Origin: Martelella radicis
GTDB taxonomy: Bacteria; Pseudomonadota; Alphaproteobacteria; Rhizobiales; Rhizobiaceae
Assembly: GCF_014196625.1 (NCBI RefSeq)
Contig: NZ_JACIDZ010000008.1
Location: 1-64,000 of the forward strand
Direction: 5' to 3'
DNA: 64,000 bases
Part shown: one piece after another, positions 44,705 through 62,475 of the stretch
How positions within the stretch are numbered: the first letter of the stretch is position 1
Layout of the letters: every line of letters starts with the position of its first letter
Notes under the pieces: generated by a model
The model's input: the letters and a program-made list of their open reading frames with translations, nothing else
Told to the model about the DNA's origin: nothing
The model's database searches: none
Made by a program: the position numbers and the translations under genes

Positions 44705-46207
44705 CTAATCGGCGACGGCTTTCAGTACGCCGAGCGCGGCCTCGCTGCCGGCCTTGAAACGCGCAAATCCCGCTTCATAGGCCTTTCTGCTTTCCGCTGA
44801 CGGTTCGAAACGCGCCTTCAGCGCGAATGTCGCCGCGCAGGCTTCATCAAGGGAGGCGTAGTCGCCGATGGCGACGGCGGCGCAGAGCGCTGCCCCCTTG
44901 GCACCGAACTGCGTGCCCTCCGGCACTTCGACGGGCGCACCGGTGACATCGGCAATCATCTGCGACCAGAACGGGCTGCGCGCGCCGCCGCCAACAAGCC
45001 GGATGGAGGATTTCACGCCGCCGATCGCTTCGAAACAGTCGCGGATCGCATAGGCCAGTCCCTCATAGACGGCGCGCACCATGTCGGCCCGACGATGGTG
45101 CGGGGCAAGGCCGTTGAAGCCGGCGCGGGCCTTCGGCTCGATGCGCGGCGCAATCACGCCGGAGGCCGAGAGATAGGGAACGAAGGAAACGCCGTTCGCG
45201 CCCGCCGGGCTCTGTTCGGCAAGCGCGCCCAGCGCCTCATAGGGCGCGTCGCCGGCGGCGAGATCGGGGCAGAGCGTTTCAAGCGCCCAATCGAGCACGG
45301 TGGTGCCGGCCACATTGACCATCGACTTCATCCACCGTTCGCCCGGAACGATGAACAGCAGCCCGAGGTCGCGCGGTTCATAGACGGCGCGGTCGAAGAT
45401 CACGCCGTTGAGGCAGGTCGTGCCGAGCACGGTGACGGCCTGACCCGGCTCGTGGGCGCCGGCGCCGAGCACGCAGGCGCTGGTGTCGCCTGTGCCGATG
45501 GCAACGGGCGTGCCAGCCTTCAGGCCGGTTGCCCTGGCCGCAGCCTCGGTGACCGCGCCAGCCAGCGTTTCCCCACGGGCGACCGGCGAAAGCAGATGGA
45601 CATGATCCTCGATGCCGAGAAGGGCGGCCTGTCCGGGATGAAAATCGCGCGTCGTCGCCGAGCCCGGGGCCATGGCGGCTTCCGATTCATCGGTGGCGAC
45701 CGCGCCGGTCAGCCGGTAGCGGATGAAATCCTTGGCCGTCAGGATATGGCGGGCCCTTGCCAGCACGTCCGGCTCGTTTTCTGCGAGCCAGGCCATCACC
45801 GGCAACGTGCAGCCGAGCTGCATCACCGAGCCGGAATGGGCGAAGACGGCGGAGATCAGGTCCGGATTTTCGGCCTGAAGCCTGTCGACGAGATCCTGCG
45901 CGCGCGCGTCGTTCCAGAGGATCGGCGGACGCAGAAGCCGGTCGTTTTCATCCAGCGCCCAGACGCCGACCATGACGCCGGTAATGCCGATGCCCCTGAT
46001 CGCGGCAGGGTCGAAGCCTGTCTGTCGAAGAAGGCCGCGGATCACCCGCGTCGCGGTCTCCCAGGTCGCCTCGCCGTCAAGCTCCGACCAACCGATGGGT
46101 GCCTCGAGCAGAGACATGCGTTCGCTTGCCTCGGCCTGCTGATGTCCGTCCCGGTCAAGGAGCGCTGCCTTGATGACCGAGGTGCCGATGTCAATTCCAA
46201 GATACAT
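44705..46207 (-). CDS. FGGY-family carbohydrate kinase (xylulokinase-like)
   Basis: 500 residues from the ATG at 46207 (MYLGIDIGTSVIKAALLD); a TTG three codons upstream lacks a ribosome site. Phosphate-1 loop GIDIGTS, substrate region GWSELDGEATW and WNDARAQ, the GTGDTSACVLGAG loop and the FGGY C-terminal signature region RLVGGGARSPFWSQMIADV are all present. Kinases of this branch phosphorylate xylulose, ribulose or related ketoses and sugar acids. Convergent to the UTRA regulator with 9 bases between stops, and preceded by its own strong operator. Confidence 0.9.
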   Translation of the reverse strand: MYLGIDIGTSVIKAALLDRDGHQQAEASERMSLLEAPIGWSELDGEATWETATRVIRGLLRQTGFDPAAIRGIGITGVMVGVWALDENDRLLRPPILWNDARAQDLVDRLQAENPDLISAVFAHSGSVMQLGCTLPVMAWLAENEPDVLARARHILTAKDFIRYRLTGAVATDESEAAMAPGSATTRDFHPGQAALLGIEDHVHLLSPVARGETLAGAVTEAAARATGLKAGTPVAIGTGDTSACVLGAGAHEPGQAVTVLGTTCLNGVIFDRAVYEPRDLGLLFIVPGERWMKSMVNVAGTTVLDWALETLCPDLAAGDAPYEALGALAEQSPAGANGVSFVPYLSASGVIAPRIEPKARAGFNGLAPHHRRADMVRAVYEGLAYAIRDCFEAIGGVKSSIRLVGGGARSPFWSQMIADVTGAPVEVPEGTQFGAKGAALCAAVAIGDYASLDEACAATFALKARFEPSAESRKAYEAGFARFKAGSEAALGVLKAVAD

Positions 46208-46218
46208 GCGAGCCAATA

Positions 46219-46270: not shown

Positions 46271-47935
46271 TCAGCCCGGGGCGCCGGGCGTGAGGAAGAC
46301 CTCGTAGAGCCAGTCGCTCATGATCCTGAGCTTGTCCTCGGCTGCGGTGCAGTGGCTCTGGGCGCGCAGATAATCATGGACGAGGCCTTCGCCTTCGTCG
46401 ACGGTCACGCTGACGCCCCCCCTTTGCAGCGCTTCGGCGTATTGCGCTGCGCTATCGCGCATCGGGTCGTTGGCGGCAAGCGCGAGGAAGGTCGGCGGCA
46501 GGCCTTCGTGTCGCTCCGCCCGAAGCGGCGCGGCCATTGGATCGGATGAAAGCAGGGCCGTATCGGGACAATAATGCCGGGCTGCCGTTTCCACGTCTTC
46601 AAGGCGCAGCAGCGGCCCGTCGGCGTTCTGCCGGCAGGAGGGCCGCGTGAGATCGAAATCGAGGATCGGATAGATCAGCAGCGCGGCGCGCAGCGGCAAT
46701 TTTGCATCCCGACAGGCGGTCGCGGCGGCAGCCGCGAGGTTCCCGCCGGTCCCGTCGCCGCCGACCGCGATGCGCGCCGCGTCGATGCCAAGGCGCTCGG
46801 CCTGTTCGCGCGCCCAGGCGATGACGGCGAGCGCTTGCTTCAGCGCTACCGGATACGGGTTTTCGGGCGCGAGCGCATAGTCCACCGAGATCACCGTCTG
46901 TCTGGTCCATGAGGCGAGGCGCGCGGTCGTGTCCCAGTGGCTTTCGGGGCTGCCGCGCCAGAAACCGCCGCCATGGAGATAGACGAGCGCCGGCTGTGGA
47001 CCGCTGCCCTGGTGTCTGAAGATGCGGACGCGGACGGGGCCGCCATCGCTGTCGATCCAGTCTTCCCGGTCCGTTTCGATATTGGGCGGCGTCGGCAGCC
47101 GGAGATTGCGGGCGATCGAATTGTAGAGCACGCGCCTTGCCTCGAGCGTCGTTGCCTCCGGCAGGCTGTTTTTCTGCGCCTCGAGCACTTCGAGGAAACG
47201 GTAGATGCCGGGATCGATCATGCGCGGCTTCGTCTGCGGCGGCTTTTCGACATCCTCCGGCGAAAGCCCCGGCTTCATCACGAAGCGCAGCACCATGTCG
47301 CCGGTATGCCGCCTCAGCATTTCCTGGCCCTTGGGCTCGAACAGGTCGGGGCCGAAAATGTTGGAGAAGGTCGCGCGGTTGGAGACGTTGAAGACGGCCA
47401 GCGCGGAAATGTGCCAGTGCAGTTCGAGCGCCGTCAGGCCGGGCCGGAACAGGCCATCATCGCAGCCGCGCCTGTAGATCTCCTCCAGAAGCCGGATCGC
47501 CGAGCTGTTCTGTCCCGAGATCATCTCCGACTTCGACATGTGACGGCCTTCGTGAATGTTCTCGACCATTACCAGCCGCACGAAATCGCGCTCGCGGCTG
47601 TGGTGGTCGAAAGTGAACTCCGTCAACTGCCGCAGGGCTTCGACGGGATGAAGGCGGCCGAGGTCGAGCGCGTCCTCGGCGCGTCGCATGCGTGCATAGG
47701 CGTCCTCCAGAACCGCGCGGTAGAGGCCTTCCTTGTCGCCGAAATAATAATAGATCATCCGTTTCGAGGTTCGGGTCCGGGCGGCGATCTCATCCATCTT
47801 GGCGCCGGACAGGCCGTGAGCGACGAAGACGGCGCGGGCTGTCTGAAGGATGTTCTCGCGCACGGCTTCGGGATTCTGCTTCCAGCTTCGCCGTGACGTC
47901 ATGTCCGGTTGTTCATTGATCTGGCCCTTTGCCAA
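46271..47935 (-). CDS. TetR regulator fused to a serine-less alpha/beta-hydrolase (HSL-type) domain
   Basis: 554 residues, TTG start at 47935, chosen for the strong GGGGAGGAG site 8 bases before it. Residues about 22-70 are a TetR helix-turn-helix (ILQTARAVFVAHGLSGAKMD ... TSKRMIYYYFGDKEGLYRAV), and 71-225 the helical TetR C-domain. Residues about 240-550 are a hormone-sensitive-lipase-type alpha/beta hydrolase with the oxyanion motif HGGG (321-324), the catalytic Asp region ANDPMRD (489-494) and His520 (VHDY). The nucleophile elbow GDSAG reads GDGTG (394-397... Asp394, Gly395), so the catalytic Ser is Gly and the codon is GGG. The domain should bind but not cleave an ester-like ligand. It faces the quinate operon at 48097. 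Confidence 0.9.
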   Translation of the reverse strand: MAKGQINEQPDMTSRRSWKQNPEAVRENILQTARAVFVAHGLSGAKMDEIAARTRTSKRMIYYYFGDKEGLYRAVLEDAYARMRRAEDALDLGRLHPVEALRQLTEFTFDHHSRERDFVRLVMVENIHEGRHMSKSEMISGQNSSAIRLLEEIYRRGCDDGLFRPGLTALELHWHISALAVFNVSNRATFSNIFGPDLFEPKGQEMLRRHTGDMVLRFVMKPGLSPEDVEKPPQTKPRMIDPGIYRFLEVLEAQKNSLPEATTLEARRVLYNSIARNLRLPTPPNIETDREDWIDSDGGPVRVRIFRHQGSGPQPALVYLHGGGFWRGSPESHWDTTARLASWTRQTVISVDYALAPENPYPVALKQALAVIAWAREQAERLGIDAARIAVGGDGTGGNLAAAAATACRDAKLPLRAALLIYPILDFDLTRPSCRQNADGPLLRLEDVETAARHYCPDTALLSSDPMAAPLRAERHEGLPPTFLALAANDPMRDSAAQYAEALQRGGVSVTVDEGEGLVHDYLRAQSHCTAAEDKLRIMSDWLYEVFLTPGAPG

Positions 47936-48012
47936 TTTCTCTCCTCCCCTCGATCCTTCCCTTGCGGGTCTACTGCAAAGCAGGCGATTGCGCGACCCTC
48001 AAAAAACAAAAC

Positions 48013-48057
48013 TAACCGATCCGAACATTGCCTTGACATAATTAACCGAGTTGAACA
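48013..48057 (+). promoter_or_regulatory. Candidate TetR operator repeats and promoter of the quinate operon
   Basis: Two direct copies, TAACCGATCCGAACA (48013-48027) and TAACCGAGTTGAACA (48043-48057), are exactly 30 bases apart, about three helical turns. TTGACA (48033-48038) lies between them as a good -35, and the second copy overlaps the following spacer and -10. The adjoining TetR-fusion gene is divergent, so these repeats probably control both directions. Confidence 0.6.
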
Positions 48058-48096
48058 AAATCAAAAACAGGAGATTGTTTGGGAGGACGCTTCTGC

Positions 48097-48975
48097 ATGG
48101 ATGTCACACGGGCACGCTCGCCACGCGCCGGTTCCGGTCATAGCTTCAGAGCCGGTCTTCTGGGCAAGGGCATTGGCGGCTCGCGCACGCCGGGCATGCA
48201 TATGGCCGCGGCCAGGGCGCTCGGAATTGACTATCGCTATGATTTCATCGACGCGCTCGAACGCGACCTGCCGGAGGATGCCGGCGCGATCCTCGATGTG
48301 CTTGAAGCCGAGAGTTATCGCGGCCTAAACGTCACCTATCCCTTCAAGCAGGCCGTTATTCCGCATCTCGACGCGCTTTCCGAAGAGGCGCAATTGGTCG
48401 GCGCGGTTAATACCATTGTTTTTGAAGGCGACCGCCGCATTGGACACAATACCGATTGCTGGGGCTTTGCCCGGAGCTTTCGCGAGGGTCTGGCGGAAAA
48501 TGTCGCGCGCGGTCGTGTGCTGCTTTTGGGCGCCGGCGGAGCTGGCGGGGCCGTGGCGCATGCACTGCTCGACGAAGGCATCGGCCGGCTGCTGATCCTC
48601 GATCCCGACGAGGCGCGCGCCGGCGCGCTTGTCGATAGCCTTGCGCATCATTTCAGCGCTGAAAGGGTCGAGGCCGCATCAGGCGTGGAGGTTGCCGCCA
48701 GTGTCGACGGGATCGTCAACGCCTCACCGGTTGGCATGGAGAAACTGCCGGGCTGCCCGCTTCCCGAACGGCTGATCTCGCCCGGCCACTGGGTCGCAGA
48801 CATCGTCTATTTTCCGCCCAGAACGGAGTTGATCGTCGCCGCCGAAGCGAAGGGATGCGCGGTGTTGCCGGGCACGGGCATGGCGCTCTGGCAGGCCGTT
48901 CGCGCATTCGAACTGTTCACCGGGGAAGAGCCCGATATCTCCGAAATGATGCCGGCCCTCATGGCGGCATCGTGA
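48097..48975 (+). CDS. Shikimate/quinate dehydrogenase (AroE family)
   Basis: 292 residues from the ATG at 48097, with GGGAGGA 10 bases before it. Substrate-binding loop GIGGSRTPGMH, catalytic Lys in NVTYPFKQ, Asp in HNTDCWGF, cofactor loop LLGAGGAGGAVAHAL. The SRTP variant and the operon with a dehydroshikimate dehydratase point to a catabolic quinate/shikimate dehydrogenase rather than the biosynthetic AroE. Starts the operon opposite the TetR fusion. Confidence 0.9.
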   Translation: MDVTRARSPRAGSGHSFRAGLLGKGIGGSRTPGMHMAAARALGIDYRYDFIDALERDLPEDAGAILDVLEAESYRGLNVTYPFKQAVIPHLDALSEEAQLVGAVNTIVFEGDRRIGHNTDCWGFARSFREGLAENVARGRVLLLGAGGAGGAVAHALLDEGIGRLLILDPDEARAGALVDSLAHHFSAERVEAASGVEVAASVDGIVNASPVGMEKLPGCPLPERLISPGHWVADIVYFPPRTELIVAAEAKGCAVLPGTGMALWQAVRAFELFTGEEPDISEMMPALMAAS

Positions 48976-48997: not shown

Positions 48998-50890
48998 ATG
49001 AAGACCTCAATCGCCACCGTTTGCATTGCCGGGGACCTGCAGGAAAAACTGGGGGCGATCGCCGCGGCCGGCTTTGACGGCATCGAAATCTTCGAACAGG
49101 ATTTCATCGCCTTCGACGCTTCGCCGCGCGATGTGGGGCAGATGGTTCGCGATCACGGGCTGGACATCACGTTGTTCCAGCCGTTCCGCGATTTCGAGGG
49201 GTTGCCTGAGCCGCTGCGGACACGCGCCTTCGACCGCATGGAGCGCAAGTTCGACCTGATGCAGGAACTGGGCACCGATCTGGTGCTGGTCTGTTCGTCA
49301 ACCCATCCCGAAGCGCTCGGCGGCATTGACCGCATGGCCGGCGACTTCGCCGCACTTGGAGAGCGGGCGGCGAAACGCGGGCTGCGCGTCGGCTTCGAGG
49401 CGCTGGCATGGGGCCGGCATGTTTTCGATCATCGCGATGCCTGGGAGGTCGTCCGCCGCGCGGATCATCCCAATATCGGGCTCATCCTCGACAGTTTCCA
49501 TACGCTTGGGCGTGGAATCGACCCCGATTCGATCCGCCGTATCCCCGGTGACCGTATCTTCTTCGTCCAGCTTGCCGATGCACCGATCATCGAGATGGAC
49601 CTGCTCTACTGGTCGCGGCATTTCCGCAACATGCCGGGCGAGGGGGACCTCGACGTCGTTTCCTTCATGCGCGCGGTCGCGGCGACAGGTTATAGCGGGC
49701 CGCTTAGCCTTGAAGTGTTCAACGATCAGTTCCGCGGCGGCAGCCCGGGCGCGATCGCGCGCGACGGGCATCGCTCGCTCGTCTACCTCATGGATCAGGT
49801 CCGCCGGCTGGAACCGGCCAATGCCTTCGGCCTTTCGGACATGCCGCCGCGCATTTCTACGCGCGGCGTGTCCTTTGTCGAATTCGCGGCTGATGAGACG
49901 GAAGCGGCCGACGTGGCCGGCATTCTGTCGACGCTCGGCTTCAGGCGGGCGGGCCGGCACATCGCCAAGCAGGTCGAGGTCTGGCGGCAGGGCGATATCC
50001 GTGTGGTCATCAATACCGAGCGCGAAGGCTTTGCCCACAGCGCCCATATCGTGCACGGCCTCAATATCTGCGATATCGGGCTTACGGTGGAAAGCGCGAA
50101 GGATACGGTCACGCGGGCCGAGGCGCTTGGCATCGTGCCCTTCCGCCAGCCGGTCGGCGCGGGCGAACTCGATATTCCGGCCATTCGCGGCGTTGGCGCC
50201 GGGCTGATGCATTTCATTGATGACAGCAGCGGCCTCGCGGATGTCTGGGATACGGAATTCCGCCCGGTGGACGATGAGACGCCGGCGCGCGCTGCGGGGC
50301 TCAAGCGCATCGACCACATCGCCCAGACGATGAATTATGAAGAGATGCTGACATGGTCGCTGTTCTACCTGTCGCTGTTTGAAACCGAGAAATCGCCGAC
50401 CGTCGATGTCGTGGATCCCGGCGGACTGGTGCGCAGCCAGGCCATCCAGTCGCCGGACGGCGCGCTGCGCGTCACCCTCAACGGCGCGGAAACGCACCGC
50501 ACCTTTGCTGGTCGCTTCGTTGCCGACAGTTTCGGCTCGTCGGTGCAGCATGTCGCCTTTGAGACCGGTGATATCTTCGCCACGGCCGAGGCGCTTGCGG
50601 CAAACGGCTTTGCGGTCTTGCCAATGCCGGACAACTACTATGACGACCTTGTTGCGCGACTTGCGGTCGCGCCGGAGATGGTCGAGCGCCTACGGGGCCA
50701 CAACATTCTCTATGACGAAGACAAGAACGGAGCCTATTTCCAGCTTTACAGCCGGCCGTTCGGCGACGGCATCTTCTTCGAGATCGTGGAGAGACGCGGT
50801 GCCTATTCGGGCTATGGCGCGGTCAACGCGCCCTTCCGCACCGCCGCGCAGCGCAGGCTGATGCGGCCGGCATCGGTGCCGCGGCGATGA
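48998..50890 (+). CDS. quiC: 3-dehydroshikimate dehydratase, two-domain (QuiC1 type)
   Basis: 630 residues. The N-terminal sugar-phosphate-isomerase/AP-endonuclease-type barrel (1-270) carries the four metal ligands Glu134 (GFEALAW), Asp165 (LILDSFH), Gln191 (FVQLAD) and Glu239 (SLEVFND), the set described for Pseudomonas QuiC1 as I recall it. The C-terminal half (290-620) is a 4-hydroxyphenylpyruvate-dioxygenase-like VOC domain with metal ligands His in IDHIAQ, His in VQHVAF and Glu in FFEIVERR. The enzyme dehydrates 3-dehydroshikimate to protocatechuate. The role of the second domain is not settled; its ligands are intact here. Protocatechuate degradation genes are not in this window. Confidence 0.92.
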   Translation: MKTSIATVCIAGDLQEKLGAIAAAGFDGIEIFEQDFIAFDASPRDVGQMVRDHGLDITLFQPFRDFEGLPEPLRTRAFDRMERKFDLMQELGTDLVLVCSSTHPEALGGIDRMAGDFAALGERAAKRGLRVGFEALAWGRHVFDHRDAWEVVRRADHPNIGLILDSFHTLGRGIDPDSIRRIPGDRIFFVQLADAPIIEMDLLYWSRHFRNMPGEGDLDVVSFMRAVAATGYSGPLSLEVFNDQFRGGSPGAIARDGHRSLVYLMDQVRRLEPANAFGLSDMPPRISTRGVSFVEFAADETEAADVAGILSTLGFRRAGRHIAKQVEVWRQGDIRVVINTEREGFAHSAHIVHGLNICDIGLTVESAKDTVTRAEALGIVPFRQPVGAGELDIPAIRGVGAGLMHFIDDSSGLADVWDTEFRPVDDETPARAAGLKRIDHIAQTMNYEEMLTWSLFYLSLFETEKSPTVDVVDPGGLVRSQAIQSPDGALRVTLNGAETHRTFAGRFVADSFGSSVQHVAFETGDIFATAEALAANGFAVLPMPDNYYDDLVARLAVAPEMVERLRGHNILYDEDKNGAYFQLYSRPFGDGIFFEIVERRGAYSGYGAVNAPFRTAAQRRLMRPASVPRR

Positions 50891-50904
50891 CGGGGAGGCG
50901 GCTG

Positions 50905-51786
50905 ATGGAACCCAGGGTGGAATGCGTTCAGACCGTCGAGGCGCGACTCGGGGAAACGCCGCTGTGGTGCGAGCGCACGCAAAGGCTGGTGTGGATCGAC
51001 ATCGAGGAACCGCGCCTGTTCCGGCTTGATCCGGCAACCGGCAAGGCAAGCGTCAGCACGCAGGCCTCGACCTATCTCGGCTGCCACGCCCTGACTCGCT
51101 CGGGACTTCATCTGATCGCACGCGATCTGGAACTGGTGATGGAAGATCCGGAGACGGGCCGGTCGGAGCCCTTCGGGCGCGTTCCCGACGAGGCTTTGCC
51201 CGCGACAAGGCTGAATGACGGGCGCGTCGACAGGAACGGGCGGCTTTGGATCGGGACGATGGACAATGGGCTGAACCAGGGGCTGGGGCGGCTTTATCGC
51301 GTCGATGCCGATGGCGCGTTCACGCCCTTTTACGACGATGTGATTGTGGCAAACGGCATCGCCTTCGACCCCGGCGGGCGTCATATGTATTTCACCGATA
51401 CGCGCAGGCATCTGACATGGAAGATAACGCTGGACGAGGCCGGAGAGCGGCCGGTCTCGCGCACGGTCTTCGCCGATTACAGCGCCGGCGGTGAACGTCC
51501 CGACGGCGCCTGCGTGGATGCCGATGGCTGCCTCTGGCAGGCCTTTTTCGCGGGCGGCGCGATCGTGCGCTATACGCCCGATGGCCGGATCGACCGAAAG
51601 ATTGGTTTGCCGGTGACCAATCCGACCTGCCTTTGTTTCGGCGGCCCGGATTACAAGACGCTGTTCGTCACCACAGCGTACAAATTCTTGAGCGAGGAAC
51701 AACGCGCAGACGAGCCGCTCGCCGGCAGCGTTTTCGCTATAACCGGAGCGGGCCAGGGGGTGGCCGAGCACCGTTTCGATTTCTAG
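50905..51786 (+). CDS. SMP-30/gluconolactonase-family lactone hydrolase
   Basis: 293 residues from the ATG at 50905, which has GGGGAGG 6-7 bases upstream; an ATG at 50887 overlapping the previous stop is the alternative. Six-bladed propeller landmarks are ARLGETPLWCERTQRLVWID (Glu metal ligand), RLNDGRVDRNGRLWIGTMD, NGIAFDPGG and RPDGACVDADG. Family enzymes open gluconolactone and similar lactones. In this operon a cyclitol- or chlorogenate-derived lactone (quinide-like) is conceivable, but this is inference. Confidence 0.88.
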   Translation: MEPRVECVQTVEARLGETPLWCERTQRLVWIDIEEPRLFRLDPATGKASVSTQASTYLGCHALTRSGLHLIARDLELVMEDPETGRSEPFGRVPDEALPATRLNDGRVDRNGRLWIGTMDNGLNQGLGRLYRVDADGAFTPFYDDVIVANGIAFDPGGRHMYFTDTRRHLTWKITLDEAGERPVSRTVFADYSAGGERPDGACVDADGCLWQAFFAGGAIVRYTPDGRIDRKIGLPVTNPTCLCFGGPDYKTLFVTTAYKFLSEEQRADEPLAGSVFAITGAGQGVAEHRFDF

Positions 51787-51808: not shown

Positions 51809-52795
51809 ATGACATTTCACAGCAAAATCAGGAGGCTGGCAATAATAACGGCCGTCGCGGTAATGACGGCGGCCGGCGCGCAGGCGCAGGACAGGATCGA
51901 ACTTCTCTATTCCGACGTGACTTCGGCGGATGTGCCGCGGTCCGAGGCGATGACCGGTATCTTCGCCGATGAGATCAGCGACGACTTCGACCTGAAGGCG
52001 CATTTCAACGGCACGCTGGTCAAGCAGGGCGCGGAACTGGTCGCCGTCCAGCGCGGCAATCTGGATCTGGCCATTCTGCCGCCGTCGGATTTTGCCGAAC
52101 AGGCGCCGGCATTCGATATTCTCGGCGCGGCCTACGTCGTACGGGATGCAGACCATCTGATGCGGATCTTCAACAGCGATGTCGGCGATTCCTTCCGCGA
52201 GATGGCGCGCGAGAAGATGGGGGTCGAGATCCTTGCGCCCGCCTATTACGGCCGCCGCCAGGTCAATGTCGTCGGCGACGAGAGGATCATGACGCCCGAA
52301 GACATGGCAGGCATCAAGCTACGCATGCCCGGCGGCGATAGCTGGCAGTTCCTCGGCAAGGCCATCGGCGCCAATCCTGTGCCGATTCCCTATCCAGAGG
52401 TCTACACCGCCCTGCAGACCGGCGTCATCGATGGCCAGGACAACCCGCTTCCCAATGACAAGGCGATGAAGTTCTACGAGGTGACGGACCAGATCGTGCT
52501 GACCGGGCACAATGTCGGTTTCGGCATGCTGATCATGAGCGCGGACCGCTTCGACAGCCTGAGCGAAGCCCAGCAGCAGACCCTGCGCGACGCGGCCGAG
52601 AAGGCGTTTACCTGGTCGAACGCGCAGTACCTGAAGCAGGAAGACGAGTTGGTATCCTTCTTCAAGGACCAGGGTCTCGATGTCTACACCCCCGATGTCG
52701 AGGCGTTCCGTGCCTACGCGCAGAAGCAATATCTCGATTCGGACATGTCCGAGCACTGGCCCGAAGGCATGCTGGACAGGATCAACGGCCTTTGA
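51809..52795 (+). CDS. TRAP transporter substrate-binding protein DctP, copy 1
   Basis: 328 residues. Signal peptide IRRLAIITAVAVMTAAGAQA, then the DctP pattern FNGTLVKQGAELVAVQRGNL, the conserved arginine region MAGIKLRMPGGDSWQFLG and ALQTGVIDGQDNPLP. AGGAGGAGG ribosome site. It is followed by a second, clearly paralogous DctP gene with which it shares most of the core motifs. Confidence 0.93.
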   Translation: MTFHSKIRRLAIITAVAVMTAAGAQAQDRIELLYSDVTSADVPRSEAMTGIFADEISDDFDLKAHFNGTLVKQGAELVAVQRGNLDLAILPPSDFAEQAPAFDILGAAYVVRDADHLMRIFNSDVGDSFREMAREKMGVEILAPAYYGRRQVNVVGDERIMTPEDMAGIKLRMPGGDSWQFLGKAIGANPVPIPYPEVYTALQTGVIDGQDNPLPNDKAMKFYEVTDQIVLTGHNVGFGMLIMSADRFDSLSEAQQQTLRDAAEKAFTWSNAQYLKQEDELVSFFKDQGLDVYTPDVEAFRAYAQKQYLDSDMSEHWPEGMLDRINGL

Positions 52796-52904
52796 GGAGG
52801 GAAAGGCCAGCCCCCGCAATTCAAGTGAACGTGCGATGCCTCGCGCGTCAATGAGGACATTCCGCGATGGGAGATCGCCGGGATGAAAACAGGAGGAGAG
52901 AGAA

Positions 52905-53891
52905 ATGATCAATCGCAGAACTCTGTTGGGCGCCGTCGCCGTCATCGGCATGGCGTTTGCAAGCGCGGCCCCGTCGCTGGCGCAGGACGCTCCGCAGAAG
53001 CTACGCTTCTCGGCCGTGTTCTCCGAGCAGGACATTCGCGCGGACATGATGAAACAGCTTGAGGAAGACGTGTCGGCCATGGCAGACCTCGAGCTCTACT
53101 ACGGCGGCAACCTGTTCAAGCAGACAACCGAGATCATCGCCATCCAGCGCGGCAATCTCGAAATGGGCAATGTTTCGCCGCAGGATATCGCCACGCAGGT
53201 TCCGGCCTTTTCCATTCTGACCTCGGCCTATCTTTTCCGCGATGCCGAGCATCTGAATGAATTCTTCAAGAGCGATGCCGGCGCCGAGATGAAGGCCCTG
53301 GCCGAAGATCAGCTCGGCATCCATATTCTCGGACCGACCTATTTCGGCACCCGCCAGGTCGGGTTGCGCATCGACAAGAAGATCAACACGCCGGAGGACA
53401 TGGCGGGGGTGAAGCTCAGAATGCCGGGCGGCGACGCATGGCAATTCCTTGGCCGCGCGCTCGGCGCCAATCCCACGCCCATGGCCTATGCCGAGGTCTA
53501 TACCGGTCTTCAGACCGGCGCGATCGACGGACAGGACAATCCGCTGCCGAACGTCGAGAACATGAAGTTCTACGAGGTGATGGATCAGATCGCGCTGACC
53601 TCGCATCTGGTGGGGTATGATCTGCTGGTTATCTCGCAGGATGCGTGGGATTCTTTTACCGATGAGCAGAGGGCCGAGTTCGAGGCCGCCGCCGACAAGG
53701 CGATCGCCTGGAGCACCGAGCAGCATCTGAAGCGCGAAGGGGAGCTTGCCTCCTTCTTCGAGGAGCAGGGGCTGGATATCTACACGCCCGATGTCGACGC
53801 CTTCCGCGCGCATGCGCAGGAGATGTATCTGAATTCCGACCTGTCGAAGGACTGGCCGGAAGGCATGCTCGACCGCATCAACGCGCTCTGA
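52905..53891 (+). CDS. TRAP transporter substrate-binding protein DctP, copy 2
   Basis: 328 residues, signal peptide INRRTLLGAVAVIGMAFASA ending SLAQD. Same length as copy 1 and the same landmarks (MAGVKLRMPGGDAWQFLGRA, GLQTGAIDGQDNPLP, DWPEGMLDRIN at the end), but with many substitutions, so it is an old duplication rather than a recent repeat. Only one DctQ/DctM pair follows. Two binding proteins sharing one membrane complex could widen the substrate range. AGGAGGAG ribosome site. Confidence 0.93.
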   Translation: MINRRTLLGAVAVIGMAFASAAPSLAQDAPQKLRFSAVFSEQDIRADMMKQLEEDVSAMADLELYYGGNLFKQTTEIIAIQRGNLEMGNVSPQDIATQVPAFSILTSAYLFRDAEHLNEFFKSDAGAEMKALAEDQLGIHILGPTYFGTRQVGLRIDKKINTPEDMAGVKLRMPGGDAWQFLGRALGANPTPMAYAEVYTGLQTGAIDGQDNPLPNVENMKFYEVMDQIALTSHLVGYDLLVISQDAWDSFTDEQRAEFEAAADKAIAWSTEQHLKREGELASFFEEQGLDIYTPDVDAFRAHAQEMYLNSDLSKDWPEGMLDRINAL

Positions 53892-53908
53892 GCGGCTCCA
53901 ACATCAAC

Positions 53909-53937
53909 GACCGTATCCGGCTTTTCCGGATACGGTC
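53909..53937 (+). terminator. Hairpin between DctP copy 2 and DctQ
   Basis: GACCGTATCCGG (53909-53920) pairs perfectly with CCGGATACGGTC (53926-53937) over a 5-base loop, with no U-run. It follows the second binding-protein gene by 17 bases and should stabilise the upstream message and reduce read-through to the membrane components. Confidence 0.6.
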
Positions 53938-53957
53938 CCGCCTGAGGCAGAACAACC

Positions 53958-54467
53958 TTGCAAAGACTGAAGCAAATAGGCGCGTGGCTGCACCGCAGGG
54001 CTGAAAACATCGCCGCTTTGATGCTGGCGATCATGTTCTGCGCCTTCATCGTCCAGGTGGCCTTCCGCTATCTTCTGAACCTGCCGATCGGCGGAGCGTC
54101 GGAACTCACCATCCTGATGTGGCTTTGGCTCGTGCTCTGGGGCGCGGCCTTCGTCCTTCGCGAATCCGACGAAATCCGCTTTGATTTCGTGCTCACGCTC
54201 GCCAGCCGGCGCGTGCGCCGCGTCATGTCGCTTCTGGCGGCCGGCGCGCTTCTGTTTCTCTACGGTTATTCCCTGCCGGCGGTGTGGGATTACGTGACCT
54301 TCATGAAGGTCCAGGACACGTCCTATCTCGATATCCGCTATGATTATGTCTATTCGATCTACATCATCTTCGCCGTGGCCGTTCTGGTGCGCTATGCTTG
54401 GCTGTTCTGGAGCGCTCTGACCAACCGCTATGTCGAACATTCCGAGTTCGGGGAGCCCGACGAATGA
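53958..54467 (+). CDS. TRAP transporter small permease DctQ
   Basis: 169 residues, TTG start at 53958. Four hydrophobic helices; landmarks are QVAFRYLLNLPIGGASELTI, a tryptophan-rich LMWLWLVLWGAAFVLRESDEI and a C-terminal tail. Overlaps the DctM ATG. Supports assembly of the large subunit with the binding protein. Confidence 0.9.
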   Translation: MQRLKQIGAWLHRRAENIAALMLAIMFCAFIVQVAFRYLLNLPIGGASELTILMWLWLVLWGAAFVLRESDEIRFDFVLTLASRRVRRVMSLLAAGALLFLYGYSLPAVWDYVTFMKVQDTSYLDIRYDYVYSIYIIFAVAVLVRYAWLFWSALTNRYVEHSEFGEPDE

Positions 54468-55759
54468 TGGACCCCTTCGCGCTCAGCGTCATCTCGATCA
54501 TTCTTCTGGCGCTTCTCGGGCTGCCGGTCGGCCACGCCATGATCGCCTCGTCGATCCTCTATCTGATGCTTGCCGGCCTCGACATGGGGACCGCGGCCGA
54601 GCAGATTCTGAACGGGCTGTTTTCAAGCTATATCCTGCTGGCGGTGCCGCTCTTCATTCTGGCTGCTGAACTGATGAATTCCGGCAGCATGACGCTGCGC
54701 CTTCTTGCCTTCTGCAATGCCTTTGTCGGGCGCTTCCCGGGCGGTCTTGCACTCGTCAACGTCGCCCAGAGCATCATTTTCGCGGGCATGTCGGGTTCCG
54801 CTCTTGCCGATGCGGCGGGCACCGGCAAGATGATGCAGAAGATGATGACGGATGGCGGCAAATATCCGCCCGCCTTCGCCGCCGCGCTCACCGCCTCCAC
54901 CGCCGTCATCGGGCCGATCATTCCGCCGTCGATCCCGATGGTTATCTATGCGCTCGTGTCGGATGCCTCGATCGGCTACCTCTTTCTTGCCGGCGTCGTG
55001 CCGGGCCTTCTGATGGGGCTGGTGCAGATCGTGATCATCGTCACGACCGCCAAGCGCCGGGCTTTTCCGGTGGAGGATCCGGTGCCGATGCGCAGGCTGC
55101 CCAGGATCGTCATCAAGGCCTTCCCTGTGCTGATGATGCCGGTCGTGCTTTTGAGCGGCATTTACGGCGGCGCCACGACGCCGACAGAGGCGGCGGCGAT
55201 CGCGGCGCTCTATGCTCTGGTTATCTCCGCATTGCTGTACAACAGCGTTAGCGTGAACGCAGTCTACCACTCGCTGCTGTCGAGCGCGCGCACCACCGCT
55301 TCGATCGGCATGCTGATCGCCGGCGCGCTGGTCTTCAATTATGTGGTGACGATCGAGAATGTGCCGACGGCGCTCAGCCAGTGGCTGGCAGGCTTCGATC
55401 TGACGCCGGTGATGTTCCTGCTGATCGTGAACGTCATCCTGCTTGCGCTCGGCTGCCTGCTGGAGGGCACGACGGTTCTTCTGGTGATCGTGCCGGTGTT
55501 CATCCCGACCGCCAACGCGCTCGGGATCGATCTCGTGCATTTCGGCGTCGTCTGCGTGGTCAATATCATGCTGGGCCTGATCACGCCGCCCTATGGGCTG
55601 CTGCTCTTCGTCATGTCCAGCATATCGGGAAAATCCCTGCACGCGATCATTCGCGAGATCCTGCCCTTCCTGGTGGCGCTCCTTGCCGCGCTGCTCCTGA
55701 TCACGCTGTTTCCGGACATTTCGCTCTGGCTGCCAAGGCAGTTCGGCTACAAGGGATAA
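54464..55759 (+). CDS. TRAP transporter large permease DctM
   Basis: 431 residues from the ATG at 54464 inside the DctQ stop. Around 12 hydrophobic segments; family motifs NILFAGMSGSALADAAGTG-like (IFAGMSGSALADAAGTGKMM), ASTAVIGPIIPPSIPMVIYA, GIYGGATTPTEAAA and the late GLITPPYGLLLFVMS are present. This subunit carries the sodium-coupled transport. Confidence 0.93.
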   Translation: MMDPFALSVISIILLALLGLPVGHAMIASSILYLMLAGLDMGTAAEQILNGLFSSYILLAVPLFILAAELMNSGSMTLRLLAFCNAFVGRFPGGLALVNVAQSIIFAGMSGSALADAAGTGKMMQKMMTDGGKYPPAFAAALTASTAVIGPIIPPSIPMVIYALVSDASIGYLFLAGVVPGLLMGLVQIVIIVTTAKRRAFPVEDPVPMRRLPRIVIKAFPVLMMPVVLLSGIYGGATTPTEAAAIAALYALVISALLYNSVSVNAVYHSLLSSARTTASIGMLIAGALVFNYVVTIENVPTALSQWLAGFDLTPVMFLLIVNVILLALGCLLEGTTVLLVIVPVFIPTANALGIDLVHFGVVCVVNIMLGLITPPYGLLLFVMSSISGKSLHAIIREILPFLVALLAALLLITLFPDISLWLPRQFGYKG

Positions 55760-55765
55760 GTTGCG

Positions 55766-56218
55766 ATGAACAAACCGATCTATGTCCTGAACGGGCCCAA
55801 TCTGAATCGGCTCGGCCTGCGCGAGCCGGAGATCTATGGCGCGACGACGCTGGCCGAGGTCGAGGCGATGTGCATGGAGGCCGCCGGCGAGGAGGGATTG
55901 GTGTTCCGCCAGACCAATTCCGAAGAAGAGATGATTGCATGGATCCACGAGGCGATCGATGCTTCGAGCGCGCTTCTGATCAATCCGGCCGCCTTTACCT
56001 TCTATTCGATGGCGATCATGGACGCGTTGAAGATGTATCCCGGTCCGATGATCGAATTCCACATCTCCAATGTCCACAAGCGCGAGCCGATCTATCACAA
56101 TTCCCTGGTCTCCCCCGTGGCGACGGCGGTGATGGCTGGCTGCGGCGCACGCGGCTATCCTCATGCGGTGCGCATCCTGCGGGAAATGGTAGCTGAGACG
56201 TTCCCGTCGGATCAATAG
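55766..56218 (+). CDS. aroQ: Type II 3-dehydroquinate dehydratase
   Basis: 150 residues, usual length for the dodecameric type II enzyme. Motif NGPNLNRLGLREPEIYG contains the flexible-loop Arg and catalytic Tyr; the substrate Asn in LINPAAF and catalytic His in EFHISNVH follow. The usual AYTHTS segment reads AFTFYS. In this operon it should convert 3-dehydroquinate to 3-dehydroshikimate for the QuiC enzyme, giving quinate to protocatechuate together with the AroE-like dehydrogenase. A housekeeping copy would be expected elsewhere. Confidence 0.93.
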   Translation: MNKPIYVLNGPNLNRLGLREPEIYGATTLAEVEAMCMEAAGEEGLVFRQTNSEEEMIAWIHEAIDASSALLINPAAFTFYSMAIMDALKMYPGPMIEFHISNVHKREPIYHNSLVSPVATAVMAGCGARGYPHAVRILREMVAETFPSDQ

Positions 56219-56399: not shown

Positions 56400-56422
56400 A
56401 TATCAATCATGATAATTGATAT
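56400..56422. promoter_or_regulatory. FCD-GntR operator before the aldo-keto reductase
   Basis: ATATCAAT (56400-56407) and ATTGATAT (56415-56422) are perfect 8-bp inverted arms around CATGATA. The sequence just left of it gives GATATATCAA, shared with the site at 58138-58147. It ends two bases before the AAGGAGG ribosome site, so a bound repressor would cover the transcription start. Bases 56219-56399 contain no gene. Confidence 0.7.
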
Positions 56423-56436
56423 CTAAGGAGGTGCCT

Positions 56437-57399
56437 TTGACGGAGGTTGGGCAAAGAGCGCAAATCGCCTTTGGCTGCGCGGCGTTGGCTGGTCTTTACG
56501 CGCCGGTTTCCGCCGATGAAGCTCATGATGTGCTGGCGGCAGCATGGGATGCCGGGATCCGCCGTTTCGACACGGCGCCCTTTTATGGCCTTGGCCTTTC
56601 GGAGCGCCGCGTCGGCGATTTCCTCCGCAGCAGGCCGCGCGCCGATTTCACCCTTTCGAGCAAGGTCGGCCGGCTGCTGGAGCCGCTGAAAGGCGATGTG
56701 CCGGACCCGCCGCTTGGGCATTTGCGAAACGGCGTGCGCTACGACTACAGCCATGACGGAATCCTGCGTTCCCACGAGAAGAGCCTTGCCCGACTCGGTC
56801 TCGACCGGATCGATATTCTCTACGTTCACGACATCGGTGAGTTTGCCCACGGACCCGAGGCGAATGCGCGTCACATGAAGGACCTGACCGGTTCGGGCCT
56901 GAAGGCGCTTGAAAGGTTGAAGAGCGAGGGTGCGATTGACGGCTTCGGCCTTGGCGTCAACGAAACGGAGGTCTGCCTCGAACTGATGAAGCACGCGCAT
57001 TTCGACGAGATCCTGCTCGCGGGGCGCTATACGCTGCTCGATCGCTCGGCCGAGGCGGCGCTTCTACCGCGCGCGCAGACTGCAGGAACCCGGCTTGTCA
57101 TCGGCGGCGTGTTCAATTCTGGCATTCTGGCGACCGGGCCGGGGCCGGACGCGCACTTCAACTATGAGCCGGCAACGCCTGAGATCAAGGAGAAGGTCGC
57201 CGCGATCGCCGAAATTGCCGGCAGGTACGGTCTGGCCCTTCCGGAAGCGGCGATCAACTTTCCGGCGGATCATCCATGCGTCTCGCACATCCTGATCGGG
57301 ACGGGCAAACGCAGCAGTCTGATGCGCAACCTGAAACAGTTCGGGCGGGCGCTTCCTCAGGAATTGCTAAACGAAATCAAACCTTTCACCATCCGCTGA
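56437..57399 (+). CDS. Aldo/keto reductase, L-fucose / D-threo-aldose 1-dehydrogenase type
   Basis: 320 residues from a TTG at 56437, six bases after AAGGAGG; earlier in-frame TTG and GTG codons would put the ribosome site inside the gene. Catalytic Asp-Tyr-Lys are visible in FDTAPFYGLGLSERRVG and LSSKVGRL, and the usual catalytic His is in YVHDIGEF. The C-terminal half (GGVFNSGILATGPGP, FNYEPATPEI) matches bacterial L-fucose dehydrogenases, which oxidise the aldose at C1 to the lactone. It precedes an enolase-type dehydratase that would act on the resulting acid. Confidence 0.88.
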   Translation: MTEVGQRAQIAFGCAALAGLYAPVSADEAHDVLAAAWDAGIRRFDTAPFYGLGLSERRVGDFLRSRPRADFTLSSKVGRLLEPLKGDVPDPPLGHLRNGVRYDYSHDGILRSHEKSLARLGLDRIDILYVHDIGEFAHGPEANARHMKDLTGSGLKALERLKSEGAIDGFGLGVNETEVCLELMKHAHFDEILLAGRYTLLDRSAEAALLPRAQTAGTRLVIGGVFNSGILATGPGPDAHFNYEPATPEIKEKVAAIAEIAGRYGLALPEAAINFPADHPCVSHILIGTGKRSSLMRNLKQFGRALPQELLNEIKPFTIR

Positions 57400-57405
57400 T
57401 TCTCG

Positions 57406-58098
57406 TCAATAGAGTCCCATATGACGGCGCAGAGCCGCATCGAAATGCGCCCGAACGGCGTCTTCGGCGGCCTGGACGTCGCGCGCCCGACAGGCCTTGA
57501 GGATCGCCATATGCTCGTTCAGCGAGCGCTGGGCGAGCGGCGGCGTCATCTTCCGGTCGAGCCGCACAAGCCGCAGATAGTGATGCATGCGCTTGTAGCT
57601 GGAATTGATCAGCGGGTTGTCCAGGGCGCCGATGATTGAATCGTGCAGCGCCGCCTCGAGGTGCTCGATCTCCGCCAGAGCATCCGCGTCAAGACCGGTC
57701 TGGCCGATCTTCTCGGACAGCGTTTCATGCTCGTTGAGCAGAGCCGCGATTTCGTCGTCGCTGGCCGTTTCGGCGAAGACCTTCACCGCCGCGCACTCAA
57801 GGATCGTGCGATACTGATAGGTCGAGCGCGTCAGCTCCAGCCCTGGTTTGACGAATTCGATGCCGGAGCGTGGGTGAATGGTCAACACGCCTTCCACTTC
57901 CAGAACCCGTAGGGCATCGCGCAGCGGGGCGACCGGTATGTCCAGCATCTCGACAAGCTGGTTCTGCGAGACGAAGGCGCCGGCCGGCAGCTTCTTCGCG
58001 AACAGATGTTCGAGAATTCGCTCATAGGCAACATCGCTGAGACGTTTTGCGCCATGGGGCTCGGCGGCGCCGGAATTTGACAATTTCGAAGAAACCAC
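57406..58098 (-). CDS. GntR-family regulator, FadR/FCD type
   Basis: 230 residues, GTG start at 58098 with GAGAGG upstream. Winged helix (SDVAYERILEHLFAKKLPAG ... IPVAPLRDALRVLEVEGVLT) then an FCD helical domain with His residues in EAALHDSII and SLNEHMAIL. It is convergent to the aldo-keto reductase gene (6 bases apart) and divergent from the enolase-type gene. GATATATCA palindromes lie in front of both, making it the likely local repressor, responding to a sugar acid. Confidence 0.92.
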   Translation of the reverse strand: MVSSKLSNSGAAEPHGAKRLSDVAYERILEHLFAKKLPAGAFVSQNQLVEMLDIPVAPLRDALRVLEVEGVLTIHPRSGIEFVKPGLELTRSTYQYRTILECAAVKVFAETASDDEIAALLNEHETLSEKIGQTGLDADALAEIEHLEAALHDSIIGALDNPLINSSYKRMHHYLRLVRLDRKMTPPLAQRSLNEHMAILKACRARDVQAAEDAVRAHFDAALRRHMGLY

Positions 58099-58137
58099 TT
58101 GCCTCTCACCCTCAGTATCTATATTACATCCATCATC

Positions 58138-58147
58138 TGATATATCA
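58138..58147. promoter_or_regulatory. FCD-GntR operator in the divergent promoter
   Basis: TGATATATCA is a perfect 10-bp palindrome, 40 bases from the regulator start and 23 bases before the enolase-type gene start, so it could give autoregulation and control of the catabolic operon. The same GATATATCAA core is seen at 56397-56406. Confidence 0.65.
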
Positions 58148-58169
58148 ACTATCGGGAATAGTCTACCAG

Positions 58170-59330
58170 ATGCCCATGCCTATAGCGAGCTTTCGTATCA
58201 CACGCTACCAGTTTCGTCGTCATCGTCCGATTGGCGACAGTCAGGTGCGTGCCGATGATGTGCATGTGGCCGCGCTGGAATTGATCGCCGAAGATGGCAC
58301 CGTCGGACTGGGGTTCATCCAGTCGCTGTTCTTTCCCCTCCCGTCGCAGGCGGAACTGACGCGGATTTTCGCGGCGGAAGTGTTTCCTGGACTTGAGGGC
58401 GAGCAGGCGGGCGCGCTGGTGCACCGCATTGCGAGGCCGCGCGGCGGCAGGCAGCGCGCCGCCTCCATTCCGGCCCACGAGGCGGTGCAGGTCGCGCTCT
58501 GGGACATGTTTGCCAAGCAGCTTGGCATGCCGCTCTACAAACTACTTGGCGGCGGTCACAAGGATCGGGTCCGCGGTTACGCCTCCGGGCTGGACTTCCA
58601 CCTGAGCGATCACGAATTCAGCGAGCTTTTCGGAGCGGCGGATGAACAGGGTTTTTCCGCCTTCAAGATCAAGGTCGGGCACCCTGATTTCGAGTGGGAC
58701 CTGCACCGGCTTGCCCTGTTGAAAAAGGCCGTGCGCGCAGGTGCCGAGATCATGATCGACGCAAACGAGGCCTGGGGCGCGAAGGAAGCGCTCGTCAAGA
58801 TCAACGCGATCGAAGCGCTTGGCTATCGCCTCACCTGGGTCGAGGATCCGATCTTGCGCTCGGATTTCGCCGGACTGAGGATGCTGTGTCAGGCGACCGG
58901 CAATACGCTGATCAATTCCGGCGAATATCTCGATGCCTCCGGCAAGCGGGCGCTGATGACGGCGGGGGCGACCGACATGGTCAACGTTCATGGCCAGATC
59001 ACCGACGTCATGCATGTCGGCTGGCTCGCCGCCGAACTCGGCATACCTGTGTCGCTCGGCAACACCTTTCTGGAGGTCGGCCTGCACCCGGCTCTGGCCC
59101 TGCCGGAGGTCGAGTGGGTCGAATATTCGTTCCAGAATTTCGATCATCTTGTCGAGGAAACCTTTGAAATCCGCGACGGCTATTTCATCGCGCCGGAAAG
59201 ACCCGGCCACGGGTTGGTTCTTGATGAAGCGACGCGCGAGGAATGGGCGCGCCCGGAAATTGTCGCGGCTGACGCCATCGGGCCGGTTCCGCCCGGTTCC
59301 GCGCCTGAGATTTCGGCCGCATCGGCCTGA
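58170..59330 (+). CDS. Enolase-superfamily sugar-acid dehydratase (mandelate racemase/muconate lactonizing type)
   Basis: 386 residues from the ATG at 58170; a second ATG lies two codons later. Barrel motifs: KIKVG (Lys base), MIDANEAW (first Mg ligand), WVEDPIL (second) and INSGEYLD (third); a His on the opposite face is in NVHGQITD. The capping domain begins IASFRITRYQFRRHRPIGDS. Members dehydrate aldonic or aldaric acids to 2-keto-3-deoxy acids. With an L-fucose-dehydrogenase-like gene upstream, a fuconate- or arabinonate-type acid is a reasonable guess. Confidence 0.9.
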   Translation: MPMPIASFRITRYQFRRHRPIGDSQVRADDVHVAALELIAEDGTVGLGFIQSLFFPLPSQAELTRIFAAEVFPGLEGEQAGALVHRIARPRGGRQRAASIPAHEAVQVALWDMFAKQLGMPLYKLLGGGHKDRVRGYASGLDFHLSDHEFSELFGAADEQGFSAFKIKVGHPDFEWDLHRLALLKKAVRAGAEIMIDANEAWGAKEALVKINAIEALGYRLTWVEDPILRSDFAGLRMLCQATGNTLINSGEYLDASGKRALMTAGATDMVNVHGQITDVMHVGWLAAELGIPVSLGNTFLEVGLHPALALPEVEWVEYSFQNFDHLVEETFEIRDGYFIAPERPGHGLVLDEATREEWARPEIVAADAIGPVPPGSAPEISAASA

Positions 59331-59395
59331 ACCAGTGACCGGCCGGCGGCGCCGAGGAGCGCCAGGGCTGCCGGAAACGAAAGAGGGAGGAGAAA

Positions 59396-60640: not shown

Positions 60641-60666
60641 TCATCCCTCTCATTTCAACGACCGAC

Positions 60667-60692
60667 CTGCGGGGCTTTCTGAGGCCCCGCAG
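60667..60692 (+). terminator. Hairpin between binding protein and permease genes
   Basis: CTGCGGGGC (60667-60675) pairs perfectly with GCCCCGCAG (60684-60692) with an 8-base loop; no U-run. It follows the binding-protein stop by 27 bases, matching the same pattern in islands A, B and E, and would favour excess binding protein. Confidence 0.55.
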
Positions 60693-60721
60693 TCATGACC
60701 AAAGCAATCGGGATCCAGATT

Positions 60722-61621: not shown

Positions 61622-61637
61622 GGAAAGGGCAATCAGC

Positions 61638-62471: not shown

Positions 62472-62475
62472 TTCC

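Follow-up and report, generated by a model that had tools for sequence, protein, structure and literature searches.

The stretch of DNA analyzed here, referred to below as the window, spans 64,000 nucleotides of the Martelella radicis genome and contains on its minus strand a gene in which a TetR repressor is joined to a hydrolase of the hormone-sensitive-lipase (HSL) type, with the following features:

46271 to 47935, minus strand: fused gene, TetR repressor plus HSL-type alpha/beta-hydrolase (554 amino acids, TTG start, stop codon included; from the open frame and Pfam)
47270 to 47872, minus strand: TetR part, helix-turn-helix and TetR_C_29, residues 22-222 (Pfam, dN/dS)
47210 to 47269, minus strand: interdomain linker, residues 223-242 (GD-to-HGG distance)
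46301 to 47209, minus strand: HSL-type domain that has lost its nucleophile, residues 243-545 (Pfam, alignment, tree, dN/dS)
46745 to 46759, minus strand: degenerate nucleophile elbow GDGTG, residues 393-397, with the Gly395 codon GGG (sequence, alignment)

The sequence GGGGAGGAG precedes the TTG start by five bases. The first-pass annotation had described a full TetR protein and a full HSL-type domain in one 554-residue frame, and Pfam indeed recognized three domains in this single open frame: TetR_N at residues 29-75 (PF00440; whole-protein E value 1.4e-13; 50.8 bits versus a cut-off of 24), TetR_C_29 at residues 97-215 (PF17938; 1.7e-43; 148 bits, profile positions 1-119 of 119, i.e. essentially the whole profile) and Abhydrolase_3 at residues 317-523 (PF07859; 1e-59; again essentially the whole profile). 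The protein has, then, both the N-terminal helix-turn-helix and a known C-terminal domain of TetR-type regulators, as well as the Abhydrolase_3 domain and HGG oxyanion motif of HSL-type (family IV) esterases. In the alignment with relatives, the oxyanion and catalytic positions are occupied by HGGG (residues 321-324), D490 (in NDPMRD) and H520 (in LVHDYL), which are therefore kept, as had been claimed. The Ser-Asp-His triad with its Gly-x-Ser-x-Gly motif is incomplete: Asp490 and His520 remain, but the elbow reads G393-D-G395-T-G instead of GDSAG, as also seen at first pass, with the residue following Gly395 altered too (A396T). Because Gly395 takes the place of the nucleophile, we do not class the protein as an esterase; judged by its sequence, it is a TetR regulator with a pseudo-esterase domain and belongs to the enzyme-derived kind of regulators.

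In sequence, the C-terminal half comes closest to HSL-type esterases of bacteria, such as Est8 (4ypv, E value 1e-44), Est2 (1evq/1qz3) and the LipP1 model, which it matches with 241 bits against a cut-off of 350; those of these relatives that were displayed in alignment carry GDSAG, whereas the window protein carries GDGTG. Among the 60 of 136 PDB matches that were listed, each matched one stretch and one half only. No close second copy was found in the window's own genome: after the fused gene itself, the best hydrolase match shares 40% identity with residues 306-541 of the window protein, and the best TetR match shares 35% with residues 14-214. An AlphaFold2 model (three rows) had a mean pLDDT of 49.0 and a pTM of 0.36, which was too poor to view the pocket, and it was set aside.

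Query P0001 was searched in 13 genomes of the window's genus, 394 of its family, 385 of its class and 349 of its phylum, as well as in 36 genomes of family f109 and 394 of the family of Alloyangia pacifica G815. Thresholds ranged from 1e-50 to 1e-70, and in the searches of the window's family, the class, the phylum and the G815 family scoring was confined to the top 3 or 4 candidates of each genome, so that weaker relatives were missed. Fused genes were found in three genomes of the window's family (its own, G222 and G383; the same three among the 13 genus genomes), in the window's own genome and G500 in the class and phylum searches, in three of 36 genomes of family f109 (G500, G794 and G796), and at seven loci in six genomes of the G815 family (G815, G857, G907, G1007, G1054 and, twice, G1037). 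Furthermore, six plasmid records hold fused genes covering at least 80% of the query, while full-length matches in G199 (C117) and G1044 are interrupted by stops and were read as two genes; scans of viral_contigs revealed no relatives. Removal of duplicates (L038 equals L090, L112 equals L039 and L111 equals L040) left 18 fused loci. Among the best matches in the open-licence literature, judged by title and the start of the abstract, we recognized no description of a TetR-HSL fusion.

Because the 40 stretches fetched were the better matches, the counts of states lean toward close relatives: glycine occupies the nucleophile position at seven of the 18 fused loci (the window, L090, L091, L039, L041, L043 and, as the seventh copy, L141), and serine is kept at 11 (L040, L042, L107, L108, L109, L110, L113, L114, L115, L117 and L140). 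Asp and His are aligned in ten of the 11 serine-bearing fusions, and L140 has the Ser and His motifs. All 23 non-fused alignment rows possess Ser, Asp and His, and Ser395 is invariant across the live rows (33/33), with Gly in the six dead ones; GDSAG is also present in the further short loci L021, L022, L030, L045 and L048. The three copies of the window's group keep His and Asp, while their Alloyangia/Salipiger sister branch is without both Ser and the catalytic His. The change from Ser to Gly, whose conservation among homologues of this architecture had been proposed as a check, is thus shared by the copies of one clade and absent from the majority of the fusions.

The glycine recurs in seven fused loci from different genomes or strains. 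Its codon is GGG in the window, GGC and GGA in two genomes of the same genus with the same fusion, and GGT, GGC and GGG in the Alloyangia/Salipiger fusions. Since the fusions of other genomes carry Gly with differing codons, all four Gly codons being found among the six read, a base or sequencing error at Gly395 is ruled out. An assembly error as the source of the fusion is likewise ruled out by the 18 fused loci from many genomes, and is further disfavored by the spacing of the two halves. The distance from the GD motif of TetR to HGG, measured at 13 loci (L114, L115 and L117 were unmatched; L140 and L141 were left out), was 109 residues in all 12 distinct loci fitting one pattern, and 108 in L113, for which a second pattern, beginning one residue earlier, was used.

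Divergent from the fused gene lies a quinate/shikimate uptake and catabolism operon, composed as follows:

48079 to 48975, plus strand: AroE-family shikimate/quinate dehydrogenase, transcribed away from the fused gene (357 bits with NCBIfam NF009201, exceeding its cut-off; Pfam)
48998 to 50890, plus strand: 3-dehydroshikimate dehydratase-like protein, QuiC type with an HPPD-like C-terminus (NF042435, 680 bits, below the cut-off of 1200; Pfam)
50887 to 51786, plus strand: SMP-30/gluconolactonase-like protein (Pfam SGL, 3e-75)
51809 to 55759, plus strand: TRAP transporter, comprising DctP (51809-52795), DctP (52905-53891), DctQ (53958-54467) and DctM (54464-55759) (profile matches)
55766 to 56218, plus strand: type II 3-dehydroquinate dehydratase, AroQ (Pfam DHquinase_II, 6.6e-47)

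The QuiC-type dehydratase (48998-50890) has an HPPD-like C-terminal half (xylose-isomerase-like barrel plus Glyoxalase_5). The flanks of the operon (44705-46216 and 56416-63549) hold other catabolic genes, including an FGGY kinase (XylB model, below cut-off) and an aldo/keto reductase and, judged from their translations alone, a GntR regulator, an enolase-superfamily enzyme and an ABC sugar transporter.

The neighborhood was compared by tblastn of the window genes on 46 locus rows, three of which are repeats. The TetR gene is directly divergent from AroE in 33 of the 46 rows, AroE is matched in 37 and QuiC in 26; this arrangement, together with the conserved operator-like sites described below, bears out the divergence from a quinate/shikimate operon noted at first pass. 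In some loci the divergent TRAP genes end with the esterase (L101-L106, L129); in others it is a separate gene behind TetR (e.g. L094-L099, L121-L123) or is fused to it. Esterases of the same subfamily with a complete triad share the quinate neighborhood, and the fused clade nests among them; the esterase presumably serves the quinate pathway. No esterase gene was found in the fetched stretch at L100 and L126-L128. The TetR_C_29-type regulators of these four loci are 64-67% identical to the window's and resemble it in being divergent from AroE and QuiC and in having tandem operator-like sites, 28-30 bp apart, but differ in the lack of a detected esterase; TRAP and AroQ genes are also present at L100, L127 and L128. 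Among the best matches in the open-licence literature, as judged by title and the start of the abstract, we recognized no description of a TetR regulator of a TRAP-quinate operon.

The region between the two divergent genes contains three candidate regulatory elements:

48012 to 48029, plus strand: operator-like site 1, CTAACCGATCCGAACATT, directly preceding the -35 box (conserved pattern)
48033 to 48061, plus strand: sigma-70-like promoter TTGACA-17-CAAAAT before the quinate operon (consensus match only)
48042 to 48059, plus strand: operator-like site 2, TTAACCGAGTTGAACAAA, lying in the spacer of the promoter and overlapping the first part of the -10 box (conserved pattern)

The promoter scan found this one promoter, with 10 of 12 matches, against a mean of 0.1 in shuffles. 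The intergenic regions share TTAACCGnnnnGAACATT, and since this consensus was read from the very regions scored, the scoring describes rather than tests it: 29 of the 36 regions hold a site matching at least 11 of 14 positions, 27 of them on the strand of the operon, compared with 0.016 such sites per shuffled region, and two sites lie 28-31 bp apart in 18 of the 36. No site at this threshold was detected in the seven remaining regions (L039, L041, L043, L105, L116, L121 and L123). Across the 4,985,483-base genome, the core YTAACCGNNNNGAACA occurs exactly only twice, at sites 1 and 2; with up to one mismatch it has 27 matches in all versus 24 for the reversed control. Because these are the only exact matches in the genome, the pattern suggests a local repressor with one main target. 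The TetR part very probably binds the sites at 48012-48029 and 48042-48059 and thereby shuts the TTGACA...CAAAAT promoter of the divergent operon. A match to the core with one mismatch lies within AroE (48395-48410, minus strand), which may be due to chance in view of the control. The idea that the esterase domain is needed to bridge the tandem operators is disfavored, as such sites also occur where the esterase is separate or was not found nearby (L094-L096, L126-L128).

The order of events was addressed with a maximum-likelihood tree of 39 HSL-type rows and two outgroup rows, from which the elbow and His columns had been taken out. The six Gly rows form one clade (100/98) that sits in a fused set of nine rows (99/98), itself contained in a set of 15 rows (100/100) that are all fused except L118. 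Since the Gly rows are a single clade inside the fused clade, the tree places one loss of the nucleophile, after the fusion, in the ancestor of the window-type and Alloyangia/Salipiger copies, and the direction from Ser to Gly is secure because every other row has Ser. As the outgroup branches were very long and the backbone mostly open, it is only the way in which fused genes nest among separate ones that gives the direction from separate to fused. The relatives suggest a series that leads from a separate TetR and esterase with Ser, through a fusion with Ser, to a fusion with Gly. The first-pass annotation had regarded homologues of the same architecture with Ser and esterase activity as evidence against its reading; 11 of the 18 fusions do have Ser and may be active esterases, but they form a grade enclosing the Gly clade, which fits a step from enzyme to non-enzyme.

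Two further fusions with intact GDSAG, L115 and L117 (both from G1037), are placed outside the 15-row set, and L117 has a long branch and no quinate genes were found beside it. L118 (G882:C19, 7173-8144) is a stand-alone esterase of the fused clade that is divergent from AroE and has no neighboring TetR match. A TetR gene 65% identical to the window's (L119) is situated on a different contig, some 1.2 kb short of its end; the arrangement looks like a fission or rearrangement.

Constraint on the dead domain was estimated as dN/dS by the method of Nei and Gojobori, from branch lengths and by a neutral simulation, all of them crude with so few sequences. For the HSL part, dN/dS amounted to 0.155, 0.190 and 0.266 among the three same-genus copies of the window's group and to 0.190, 0.301 and 0.320 in Alloyangia/Salipiger, compared with 0.101-0.174 in seven live fused pairs; because bootstrap ranges overlap (0.097-0.226 for window/L090 versus 0.117-0.243 for the live pair L040/L042), dN/dS alone cannot part dead from live domains. 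For the TetR half, the values were 0.035-0.050 in the window's group, 0.091-0.171 in Alloyangia/Salipiger and 0 to 0.239 in live pairs, zero coming from the near-identical L107/L108. On a fixed topology, the ratio of HSL to TetR branch length was 1.12 for live lineages; it rose to 1.79 on the stem, to 1.99 for Alloyangia/Salipiger and to 4.35 for the window's group, where an unusually slow TetR half accounts for part of the figure. The frames are open in all seven dead copies, while a neutral simulation with 300 runs per setting left the sequence free of stops only twice at 0.25 substitutions per site and never at 0.5 (mean 4.9 to 7.7 stops). With the branch ratio raised, yet dN/dS far below 1 and no stops, the dead domain remains under purifying selection that seems loosened but by no means lost.

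In the 59 columns whose conservation across live rows reaches 97% or more, Ser-to-Gly is the sole change common to both dead groups. The window's group alters ten of these columns and keeps 49, and Alloyangia/Salipiger alters nine, i.e. eight further ones including H520R and D335N, whereas eight live control trios changed 0-6 of 59-65. In the window's group, W251L, W255K/Q, F271Y, T332S and L492M are found in all three copies, and A396T, Q418A, P432T and G496A each in single copies. The earlier statement that only the nucleophile was lost while the pocket was kept was thus too strong, since A396T and the changes at W251, W255 and F271 accompany it; these three aromatic residues, invariant in 33 of 33 live relatives, precede HGGG and would lie in the presumed cap region of such esterases. 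The linker (20 columns) seemed better conserved between the two dead groups (48%) than among live pairs (33%), a difference that was suggestive in bins but comes from too few columns to be used.

As in other enzyme-derived regulators, the window protein contains a homologue of an enzyme that probably served the neighboring pathway. By analogy, BzdR and the fungal QutR are closer parallels to it than plant GID1. BzdR differs in its XRE-type helix-turn-helix, its shikimate-kinase-like effector domain with a kinase fold and its role in anaerobic benzoate degradation, whereas the window protein combines TetR with an esterase; moreover, the BzdR intermediates were built by hand, while the separate, fused-Ser and fused-Gly forms described here are all found in sequenced bacteria. 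The likeness lies in a DNA-binding domain joined to an enzyme-derived domain that has lost catalysis (PMC3602430), as the missing nucleophile predicts for the window protein. In a BzdR-like chimera whose shikimate kinase domain was killed by one mutation, shikimate is reported to reduce repression in vivo, and the active chimera showed no such effect (PMC3602430). The fungal quinate repressors, A. nidulans QutR, N. crassa qa-1s and A. niger QutX (PMC12610400), likewise control the quinate pathway with domains resembling shikimate-pathway enzymes, and a working hypothesis holds that the repressor is catalytically inactive but still binds its inducer (PMC10512348). They are AROM-related, eukaryotic and directed at an activator protein rather than DNA, with neither a TetR nor an esterase part; as an analogy, the same pathway having such a repressor in another kingdom is striking. 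The first-pass comparison with GID1 holds for the outcome, as GID1 is an HSL-type carboxylesterase fold turned non-catalytic receptor, but not for the residue, because GID1 is reported to have lost its catalytic His while keeping Ser and Asp (PMC10873640, PMC3531792). GID1 retains the Ser, which contacts the hormone, whereas the window's group is without Ser, keeps His and is fused to a DNA-binding protein; its sister branch has neither residue.

The best explanation of these data, which in our view has an even chance of being correct, is a quinate-operon repressor with a captured, once-active esterase, whose dead domain is kept as an allosteric module that probably binds a ligand. The TetR repressor of the divergent operon would have fused with an esterase of the same neighborhood, and the early fusion would have retained an intact Ser-Asp-His triad. 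The nucleophile would then have changed once from Ser to Gly, with the pseudo-esterase domain staying at a near-fixed distance behind the repressor. The dead domain might bind a small molecule akin to the old substrate, i.e. a quinate or shikimate ester, a lactone or an acid of the pathway, which would stay bound because it is not hydrolyzed, and the ligand state might be passed on to the repressor; chlorogenate or a lactone is a guess. Retention of the domain, the near-fixed GD-to-HGG distance, the origin in the same neighborhood and the BzdR precedent count in favor of this explanation. Against it count the relatives with TetR only at such operons, the raised branch length, the changes at otherwise invariant columns, the lost aromatics of the presumed cap and the Alloyangia/Salipiger fused genes without an adjoining quinate operon or an operator-like site of 11 or more; the reading of the operator consensus from the scored regions also weakens it. 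The fuller reading, that the repressor senses a quinate-pathway ester, lactone or acid through the dead esterase, that loss of the nucleophile made a self-clearing enzyme into a stable sensor and that all three stages survive in living species, is put forward tentatively and falls somewhat short of probable.

An unlikely alternative, though one that carries some weight, is that the dead domain is kept for structure only, dimerizing or stabilizing the repressor with no ligand of its own, and that the effector is sensed by the TetR C-terminal domain. As TetR_C_29 is complete and TetR-only genes occur at such operons, sensing may take place elsewhere than in the esterase domain; given the TetR-only genes at L100, L126-L128 and L142, a quinate operon can presumably be regulated without it. 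The strong conservation of the TetR half and the loss of the cap aromatics in the window's group also agree with a structural role. However, this group keeps HGG, D490, H520 and most of the invariant columns, and the tandem sites without a fused esterase show that the domain is not needed for pairing. The proposal that the domain is a slowly decaying relic of a bifunctional fusion, whose activity became useless and whose tail is being lost, is quite improbable: the raised branch length relative to TetR, the many changes at invariant sites and the loss of the catalytic His in the sister branch agree with it, but the dN/dS values of the two dead groups (0.155-0.320) extend at their lower end into the live range, and none of the seven dead copies has a broken frame, even though a single stop behind TetR would suffice to delete the domain and neutral drift yields several. 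Least probable of all is catalysis without serine, e.g. elimination or hydration by H520/D490 and the oxyanion loop, for which the His and Asp that all three members of the window's group retain and the plant carboxylesterase-like cyclases, reported to carry out non-hydrolytic chemistry with a broken triad (PMC10873640), could be cited, but the sister branch is without His and nothing was found that points to a reaction.

Returning to the captured esterase as a ligand-binding module, the change from enzyme to regulator has mostly been argued from end products or engineered chimeras, whereas here the separate esterase, the fusion with an intact triad and the dead fusion coexist, one loss is placed on a tree, the kind of operon is shared and a candidate operator is defined. 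The series makes it testable whether killing catalysis creates, changes or merely does not disturb sensing, and the fused domain could supply a new type of ligand module for TetR biosensors.

The Alloyangia/Salipiger copies L039, L041, L043 and L141 have neither Ser nor His and no adjoining quinate operon; L041, L043 and L141 are on plasmids, adjoining a peptide MFS transporter and a ParB-type gene. No operator-like site of at least 11 of 14 positions was detected at L039, L041 and L043 either. Retargeting of this repressor is possible. The genome of L039 has an AroE/QuiC/DctM neighborhood with a TetR gene elsewhere (L142), where no HSL match was found in 18 kb and the strict operator pattern gave no match. 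Finally, the public annotation of L040-L043, L140 and L141 reads carboxylesterase NlhH or alpha/beta hydrolase fold domain-containing protein and, as it names only the hydrolase, the regulator half is hidden from keyword searches.
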